Source of the DNA: Rhodohalobacter sp. SW132
GTDB lineage: Bacteria; Bacteroidota; Rhodothermia; Balneolales; Balneolaceae
Assembly: GCF_003390325.1 (NCBI RefSeq)
Contig: NZ_QUOK01000001.1
Coordinates: forward strand, 496,001-560,000
Reading direction: 5' to 3'
DNA: 64,000 nt
The notes under the pieces: generated by a model
The model's input: only the letters and a program-made list of their open reading frames with translations
Database searches by the model: none
What the model was told of the DNA's origin: nothing
Part shown: positions 30,096-31,833 of the stretch, piece after piece
Numbering within the stretch: the stretch's first letter is position 1
How the letters are laid out: each line of letters starts with the position of its first letter
Program-made: the position numbers and the translations under genes

Positions 30096-30653
30096 TCAAT
30101 ATTTATACCCTTTTTTTTCTTCCCCGGTAAACTCAACATCCAGTGCAAGTACCATCCGGTTGACGAAATTAAAGTATGCAATCACCTGCACGGCATCTAA
30201 AACGGCCCGGTCATCAAAATGGTGCTGCTTCAACTCTGCCACATTCTTTGTAAAGCCTGAACCCGGTTTTACTGTTAATTTTTCAGCCAATTTACACAGC
30301 AGCAGATCTTTTTCAGATAATTCAGCCTCCCGAAAATCATTTTTCAGGGCTGATATTCGCTTTTCATCTTTCCAGTACGCCATTAGCGCCTGCTCATGAT
30401 GTTCAATACAATATTGACACTCGTTAGCCAGAGATACCACAACAGCCATCATTTCCCGCTGATACCGTTTCAGCGGAGATTTACCAAACATCACGGTAAG
30501 ATAGAACTCCATGTGAGTCAACAGAGCATCCGGGTTGAGGCTTTGAATTTTATGGACTTCAGCCAGTTTCCCCCGATCACTCACAACCTGGTCGTACACT
30601 TCCCGCAGGCGCCCTTCCGATTTTTCGTACGAAATCGTTTCAATATTTGGCAT
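30096..30653 (-). CDS. AhpD-like peroxidase-related protein (carboxymuconolactone decarboxylase family)
   Basis: All-alpha protein of 185 residues in the CMD/AhpD family. The signature CxxC with a nearby histidine is present in ECQYCIEHHEQAL (residues about 86-98), the proton-relay and disulfide motif of alkylhydroperoxidases. The N-terminal MPNIETISYEKSEG and the length match the uncharacterised peroxidase-related subfamily. It may help detoxify peroxides using thiols. It lies 18 bp upstream of the BtuF-like gene, so the pair is probably one unit. Confidence 0.87.
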   Translation of the reverse strand: MPNIETISYEKSEGRLREVYDQVVSDRGKLAEVHKIQSLNPDALLTHMEFYLTVMFGKSPLKRYQREMMAVVVSLANECQYCIEHHEQALMAYWKDEKRISALKNDFREAELSEKDLLLCKLAEKLTVKPGSGFTKNVAELKQHHFDDRAVLDAVQVIAYFNFVNRMVLALDVEFTGEEKKGYKY

Positions 30654-30716
30654 CCGTTTTATTTTTTAAGACCTGAATTCTATTTAAAACTATAATCTTA
30701 TTAATCGAAATCAGGT

Positions 30717-30954
30717 TTAACCCGGATTATTCACCAAGAAATTATGTCGAGAGCAAGGCGTAGGGGAAAAAGCGACGGAAGAGTACTTGACGTACTCTGA
30801 GTACGCTTTATTTCCATACAACGAAGTTCTCGGTAGAATTTCGCCGCAAAACCTGTAGCTCAAATTTAGGCTCCTATCCATTTTATATATATGCAATATT
30901 TTTTTTAGTGCTTTACATTGATTCACACTTATCTGTGTGAATAATTCGGGTTAA
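30717..30954. mobile_element. MITE-like element with 18-bp terminal inverted repeats
   Basis: A 238-bp segment bounded by TTAACCCGGATTATTCAC (30717-30734) and GTGAATAATTCGGGTTAA (30937-30954), which are inverted copies with one mismatch in 18. It is non-coding in practice: the one frame across it (69 codons, leftward) ends exactly in the terminal repeat and has no recognisable product. Inside are the palindromic GAGTACTTGACGTACTC and a further GAGTAC. Terminal TA or TTAA is duplicated at both edges, as expected for a non-autonomous DNA transposon of the Tc1/IS630 kind; that assignment is inference. No transposase lies in the window. Confidence 0.75.
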
Positions 30955-30972
30955 GGGTTTATCGGCATAAGC

Positions 30973-31833
30973 TCAGAATTTTTTCAGGAAACGGCGGCAA
31001 TCTAATGTGTAATGTCCGTCAAACAGGTTCACATGAACAAGCAGCGGGTAGAGATTATACACCTGGATTCTGTCTTTAAAATCAGCCTCAATCTCAGTTA
31101 TGGAACCATATCCATCATAAAAAGCGGGATCAAAACCGCCGAACATTTTTGTAAATGCAAGATCCATTTCCGGGTGTCCGTAATAGACCGCCGGATCAAT
31201 CAAAACTACCCTTCCATCCTCATCGAACAGGTAATTTCCACCCCAGAGATCGCCATGCAGAAGGGACGGTTCTGTTGGCGGGATGATCGCATCCAGTCTT
31301 TTAAGCAGCCCAAACCAGTTTTTCTGGATGGAAGGCTCCATTTTCCCGGAATCAACGGCCCGCTTGAGCTGTGGGCCAATTCTCTCATCTGCAAAAAAAG
31401 TAAGCCACTTCGCATGGTGCTTGTTAGACTGTGGCAGGCTCCCGATGTAGTTATCCGAATTCAGCCCAAAACGTTCTGCTTTGGTTTGATGCAGCCTTGC
31501 AAGTTGTTCTCCAAATTGAAAAGCATCCCCGGTACTGCCGGGATTGATCCACTCCATCAACAAAAAGCCCGGGCGGTCGCCGTGTGGAGCTGCTGATTGG
31601 ATAACTTCCGGAACACGAAGTTCGGTTGATCCCGCTTTCAATAACTCCAGCCCTTCCGCCTCTTTCAGGAAAAAGTCATCCGGCGCGTTTGCATTCCACT
31701 TCAAAAATAATGTGCTGCTGCCACAATGCAGTTTCAGCGCATGATTTATACTTCCGCCAGAAACAGATTCCGCACTGTCCACGCTGATGTCACAGGATTC
31801 AATAATTCTGGTACGAATTGTTTCGGGGAGCAT
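30973..31833 (-). CDS. Fructosamine/ketosamine-3-kinase family protein
   Basis: Kinase of 286 residues with the protein-kinase-like fold, phosphorylating ketoamine adducts on glycated proteins so that they fall off. Marks are the N-lobe SVSGGSINHALKL, FLKWNA (ATP lysine), the catalytic loop LLHGDLWGGNYLF with HGD and Asn, and the metal site VVLIDPAVYYGHPEMDLAFT. The length is that of bacterial FN3K homologues, many of which prefer ribulosamines and erythrulosamines. The low-Mr phosphatase gene lies 80 bp upstream on the same strand, a functional pairing discussed separately. Confidence 0.93.
   Translation of the reverse strand: MLPETIRTRIIESCDISVDSAESVSGGSINHALKLHCGSSTLFLKWNANAPDDFFLKEAEGLELLKAGSTELRVPEVIQSAAPHGDRPGFLLMEWINPGSTGDAFQFGEQLARLHQTKAERFGLNSDNYIGSLPQSNKHHAKWLTFFADERIGPQLKRAVDSGKMEPSIQKNWFGLLKRLDAIIPPTEPSLLHGDLWGGNYLFDEDGRVVLIDPAVYYGHPEMDLAFTKMFGGFDPAFYDGYGSITEIEADFKDRIQVYNLYPLLVHVNLFDGHYTLDCRRFLKKF

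Follow-up and report, generated by a model that had tools for sequence, protein, structure and literature searches.

A 230-bp MITE with IS1380-type ends and a covarying hairpin in Rhodohalobacter sp. SW132

The window, a 64,000-bp stretch of the Rhodohalobacter sp. SW132 genome, contained a spacer between two minus-strand genes. The initial annotation had placed a 238-bp MITE-like element here, next to a gene which it rightly named fructosamine kinase. Its pair of inverted ends was present as claimed: TTAACCCGGATTATTCAC from 30717 and GTGAATAATTCGGGTTAA up to 30954 matched at 17/18 bases, were the sole inverted repeat called within 30500–31200, and are far beyond chance. The extent had to be corrected, as comparison of copies set the true mobile unit at 30721–30950 (230 bp), with TTAA lying outside on each side. 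The 14-bp ends of this unit (CCCGGATTATTCAC / CCCGAATTATTCAC) matched at 13/14 bases. The features of the locus were as follows.

30096–30653, minus strand: flanking gene, peroxidase-related / carboxymuconolactone decarboxylase family (PF02627, TIGR01926)
30717–30720, no strand: TTAA target duplication, left copy; a 4-bp duplication family-wide
30721–30950, plus strand: MITE (non-autonomous transposable element), 230 bp, with copies in the genome and in relatives
30721–30734, plus strand: left terminal inverted repeat CCCGGATTATTCAC, exact in 71/89 oriented full copies and closely matched by IS1380 ends
30738–30842, plus strand: structured core, a covarying long hairpin (covariation, fold energy, GU/AC counts)
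30755–30760, plus strand: AAGGCG, 5′ side of the lower internal loop, conserved in the alignment of copies
30777–30779, plus strand: GGA, 5′ side of the upper (tandem G-A) internal loop, from the alignment of copies
30780–30798, plus strand: apical stem-loop AGAGTAC TTGAC GTACTCT
30799–30800, plus strand: GA, 3′ side of the upper internal loop, from the alignment of copies
30820–30823, plus strand: AACG, 3′ side of the lower internal loop, mostly AACGC in copies and AACGA here
30843–30936, plus strand: right half, A+T-rich and poorly conserved on comparison of copies
30937–30950, minus strand: right terminal inverted repeat, CCCGAATTATTCAC read inward, the same in 67/89 copies
30951–30954, no strand: TTAA target duplication, right copy, read from the letters of the stretch
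30973–31833, minus strand: flanking gene, fructosamine kinase family (PF03881)

A 69-aa GTG open frame crossing the MITE was dismissed as mechanical.

The copies that the initial annotation had proposed looking for were found, mainly in relatives. The own genome (5.08 Mb, 45 contigs) contained one full copy, a 157-bp internal-deletion derivative (C13:37.26–37.42 kb) and a few solo ends. Among 97 related genomes, 23 contained matches to the MITE, with up to ~160 ends per genome (161 in G021, 146 in G066 and 142 in G082); the reversed pattern, used as a control for these counts, gave no matches. Scanning of public genomes yielded at least 120 matching stretches. Among the matches listed, Balneolales records accounted for 118, with Fodinibius roseus and F. 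salsisoli among the sources, and the other two came from metagenome-assembled genomes (MAGs) under non-Balneolales labels. The contigs with these two copies (L244 and L255) bore the labels Candidatus Harrisonbacteria and Chitinophagaceae; the MAGs may have been misbinned or mislabelled. Across relatives, the first 130 bp were the best conserved part of the element. A plasmid collection searched with the MITE of the stretch and with elements of G279 and G329 (below) gave no match.

The 42–43-bp palindromes of G039 (L078:304–345, L079:2938–2980 and L081:2890–2931) were made up of two MITE-like ends joined back to back, with YTAR-like bases on either side. In G021, one copy (L026:1510–1745) stopped ~20 bp short of the gene for a bacterial RNase P RNA (1765–2117).

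Full-length copies were flanked by identical 4-bp sequences in 69/92 cases, compared with a mean of 34.9 and a maximum of 46 in 10000 shuffles; with TTAA/TTAA pairs left out, flanks were identical in 23/46 copies against a mean of 4.9. Identity over five flank bases dropped to 5 copies, indicating that the duplication was 4 bp long. The usual targets (TTAA, TTAG and CTAA) took the form YTAR, and the duplicated flanks included the non-palindromic TTAG, CTAA, GTAA and TTAT. Thus the TA/TTAA edges pointed out earlier were indeed a target duplication, of the 4-bp TTAA and not of the 2-bp TA type.

None of the 68 testable copies was inside a long open frame (42% of random positions were), and 28 of 60 lay between convergent genes, as compared to 15% of other adjacent pairs, a count resting on a simple ORF-based gene caller. 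At the locus itself, the kinase-peroxidase spacer was 319 bp, versus 66, 67 and 13 bp in G049, G053 and G003, all of which retained the gene pair; subtraction of 230 bp and one TTAA left 85 bp. The spacers could not be aligned base by base, nor the exact empty site, because these relatives are only ~60% identical in protein. Terminal inverted repeats, a target duplication, lack of a transposase and occurrence at unrelated sites, the last by one full copy in the own genome and dozens in relatives, together with the longer spacer, bore out the designation of this element as a MITE.

Ends matching those of the MITE (CCYGNATTATTCAY) and YTAR targets were found on IS1380-family transposons, both intact and decayed, of the same order and phylum. 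Their transposases were assigned to IS1380 by PF13701 and NF033539 (E = 2.7e-104 and 6e-86). Elements L112 and L113 were bounded by TTAA followed by CCCGGATTATTCAT, to which the MITE end matched at 13/14 bases, and the transposase of L113 was 91% identical. Element L111 of G017, with an intact gene of 498 aa, had the ends CCTGCATTTCTCAC between two CTAG copies; more distant elements (L131–L138) had the ends CCTGAATTATTCAY with CTAG or CTAA duplications. Flanking duplications were CTAG/CTAG for L111 and L114 and CTAA/CTAA for L138, so that target and duplication length (YTAR, 4 bp) agreed between the insertion sequences and the MITE. The ends of the MITE also varied as IS1380 ends do (variants CCTGCATTATTCAC and CCCGCATTTCTCAC).

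An insertion sequence with the same ends, as looked for after the initial annotation, was thus found to within one base. No IS1380 element with the exact 14-bp end (CCCGG start, C at position 14) was detected in the examined genomes. The MITE-rich G066 (one contig) and G082 contained IS1380 copies with other ends, full-length ones in G066. Unpaired ends in G039, G015, G031 and G021 belonged to MITEs that were short or had decayed, or were solo ends, and none was part of a full insertion sequence, and no IS1380 transposase was seen in the G021 stretches examined. The own genome contained no transposase with matching ends; its IS1380 copy at C4:298423 had different ones (CCCAAAATTGTCATTAG), in keeping with the earlier suggestion that the mover must lie elsewhere.

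The matching ends and YTAR targets point to an IS1380 transposase as the mover of the MITE. An IS1380-family (piggyBac-like) transposase, acting in trans, would recognise the 14-bp CCCGGATTATTCAC ends and insert the element at YTAR with a 4-bp target duplication, in this case of TTAA. PiggyBac duplicates TTAA, rarely TTAG, CTAA or GTAA, and has ends CCCTT/CCCTC, and IS1380 transposases form the outgroup to eukaryotic piggyBac (PMC10813416). The ends of the MITE likewise begin CC(C/T) with a 4-bp TTAA/YTAR duplication, and their sequence matches IS1380 elements of the same order; unlike these, the MITE carries no transposase gene and has only the terminal ~14 bp in common with them.

Another DDE family with a 4-bp target might have moved the element. 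IS701 also uses YTAR targets, as the MITE does, but IS701-type (PF13546) transposons in the order had unrelated ends (e.g. CTCAACTTTCGCACTT); IS701 was rejected as the partner, no matching ends being found in the 97 genomes, and such an origin is very improbable. A Tc1/IS630-type MITE with a TA duplication, as first proposed from the TA contained in TTAA at both edges, is scarcely tenable, since flank identity covered exactly four bases, including in non-palindromic targets, and ends like those of the MITE were found on IS1380 elements. The element is a new member among IS1380-type MITE families. No earlier description of it was found in the literature searched, most subscription journals being outside its reach. 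The MITE itself is ordinary; through it, a large burst of MITEs in Balneolales is tied to an IS1380 lineage that uses TTAA/YTAR.

The GAGTAC palindrome noticed earlier was present, as the apical stem of a far longer hairpin (30738–30842, 105 nt); this covarying hairpin and its wider occurrence were absent from the initial annotation. On the plus strand, the hairpin had a minimum free energy of −41.6 kcal/mol (z = −5.5), and 0/200 shuffles were as stable. In 23 diverged Balneolales copies, 25 of 39 pairs were compensated and 94% of cells were paired; slid controls gave at most 16 pairs, and shuffles averaged 17.1 and never reached 25. Paired columns contained 63 G-U against 8 A-C, an excess indicating that folding was probably on the plus strand, although this was also the strand on which the structure had been predicted. 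The bases of the internal loops (AAGGCG/AACGC and GGA/GA) were conserved. The core had no match above the gathering score in Rfam.

A covariance model (R1) built on the Balneolales hairpin gave weak matches outside Balneolales. The repeats behind them, which began with TGCTGCRTCAAG after CTAG in G279 and with TGTCACGACACG after CTAG in G329, with others in G283 and G187, had other ends and belonged to the same class and phylum. When these repeats were added to the model (R2, ERIC left out), 7 copies were found in G279, 8 in G283, 13 in G187 and six further ones in the own genome (C6:215016–215136, L386; C4:37859, L380; C5:72959, L375; C2:558310, L392; C1:810442; and C1:289550). The own-genome copies inspected were of a different repeat, ~140 bp long with the ends GAGGGCTTTGCAAAACC and, in some copies, 5-bp duplications (e.g. 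AATTA and ACTTA). As these repeats contained the core, two families with different ends shared the same core in one genome. At one locus of G283 (L379, C1:477447–477806), three core hairpins were arranged in tandem with a period of ~121 bp.

Alignment of all families (27 distinct rows) revealed double changes in 38/39 pairs with 88.5% of cells paired, compared with 35–41% pairing in slid controls. This alignment had been fitted to the model, so that pair counts were biased towards it and the fixed loop bases were the stronger point: CAAGGCG, AACGC and GGA/GA were nearly fixed across families while the stems varied.

The plan of the hairpin, with an AAGGCG/CAACGCA loop and a GA/GA loop under the apical stem, was also that of ERIC (IRU), an intergenic MITE of similar kind in Enterobacteriaceae. 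ERIC has been in use for strain typing for decades; its origin and role are still debated. Three copies, from Kosakonia, Rahnella and Enterobacter plasmids, scored 27.2, 22.4 and 18.5 bits with R1, and the background in 50 kb of E. coli K-12 did not exceed 15.7. With R2, from which they had been held out, they scored 30.3, 28.5 and 22.3 bits, with a background of up to 12.5 in a further 50 kb; 200 kb of K-12 had been examined without finding an ERIC copy. Every ERIC match fell on a single strand, with AAGGCG and CAACGC in register. These matches indicate that both elements share the core hairpin and its conserved loops. The MITE, with CCCGGATTATTCAC ends, YTAR targets and 230 bp, has neither the terminal repeats nor the TA flanks of ERIC, nor its length of ~127 bp. 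Unlike the MITE, ERIC has TA-flanked TATACCC... ends, occurs in another phylum and consists entirely of its hairpin, and its overall sequence could not be aligned to that of the MITE.

The hairpin might be an incidental fold-back of a MITE, and its likeness to ERIC and to other repeats a convergence or an artefact of hairpin scoring. MITEs commonly contain stems, long hairpins may score on their own reverse strand (42 bits for the minus strand of L012), and the ERIC sample comprised three scored copies only. This reading appears rather unlikely, as the unpaired loop bases were the most conserved and the stems variable, ERIC read on its other strand, where the hairpin is just as long, scored nothing, held-out ERIC copies scored above every match in the 50-kb K-12 samples, and the model recovered coherent multi-copy families, each with its own ends.

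The hairpin could instead be a DNA device, formed on single-stranded DNA at replication forks and helping or steering transposition; selection on one DNA strand would also yield covarying stems with strand asymmetry, and G-T wobble occurs in DNA. Against this, hairpin-less derivatives of 83–84 bp with near-identical sequence were found in G021 at several distinct TTAA sites (e.g. L239:1675–1758, L265:6370–6453 and L275:4779–4861) and had multiplied independently, indicating that the hairpin was dispensable for transposition. The core was, moreover, common to elements that differ in their ends and in target size, and a DNA device is accordingly a distinctly poor candidate. G021, which has families with and without the hairpin, allows their copy numbers and effects on genes to be compared in a natural setting.

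A hairpin acting as RNA near gene 3′ ends is the probable alternative. As MITE cargo, it would work as a folded plus-strand RNA in processing, stability or 3′-end protection, as ERIC is reported to do, and the folded RNA could make insertions near gene ends tolerable or useful. ERIC alters the stability of co-transcribed mRNA in Yersinia (evidence summarised in PMC2229807 and PMC10969869). Like Correia/NEMIS and other hairpin MITEs, which can alter transcripts (PMC2229807, PMC10969869), the element is structured, non-autonomous and intergenic; its ends differ from those of Correia/NEMIS. At the present locus, both neighbours are on the minus strand, so that a shared transcript, if any, would have the complement of the hairpin. 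Overall, we hold with good confidence that the element is a trans-mobilised IS1380 MITE whose 105-nt hairpin cargo is dispensable for transposition and probably acts as RNA.

The likeness of the core across families may reflect shared descent, repeated capture or convergence, as far as can be judged from sequence. The proposal that one structured module, with loops fixed and stems free, is carried across phyla by MITEs with unrelated ends, that ERIC is its enterobacterial version, and that this module (an RNA in 3′ regions) and not the ends is the conserved functional part, seems to us evenly balanced. No description of a cross-phylum ERIC core was found in Rfam or in the literature searched, which took in few subscription journals. 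With the ERIC core and its fixed loops in MITEs on the Bacteroidota side, the purpose of ERIC becomes a comparative question, and the fixed loop bases are named residues for mutation.

Two of the ERIC copies (L355 and L356) gave sub-threshold matches to three sRNA entries of Rfam, V_AS5 (46.9 bits, cut-off 96), Ysr49 and CssrA, which suggests that ERIC-like repeats are contained in these entries.
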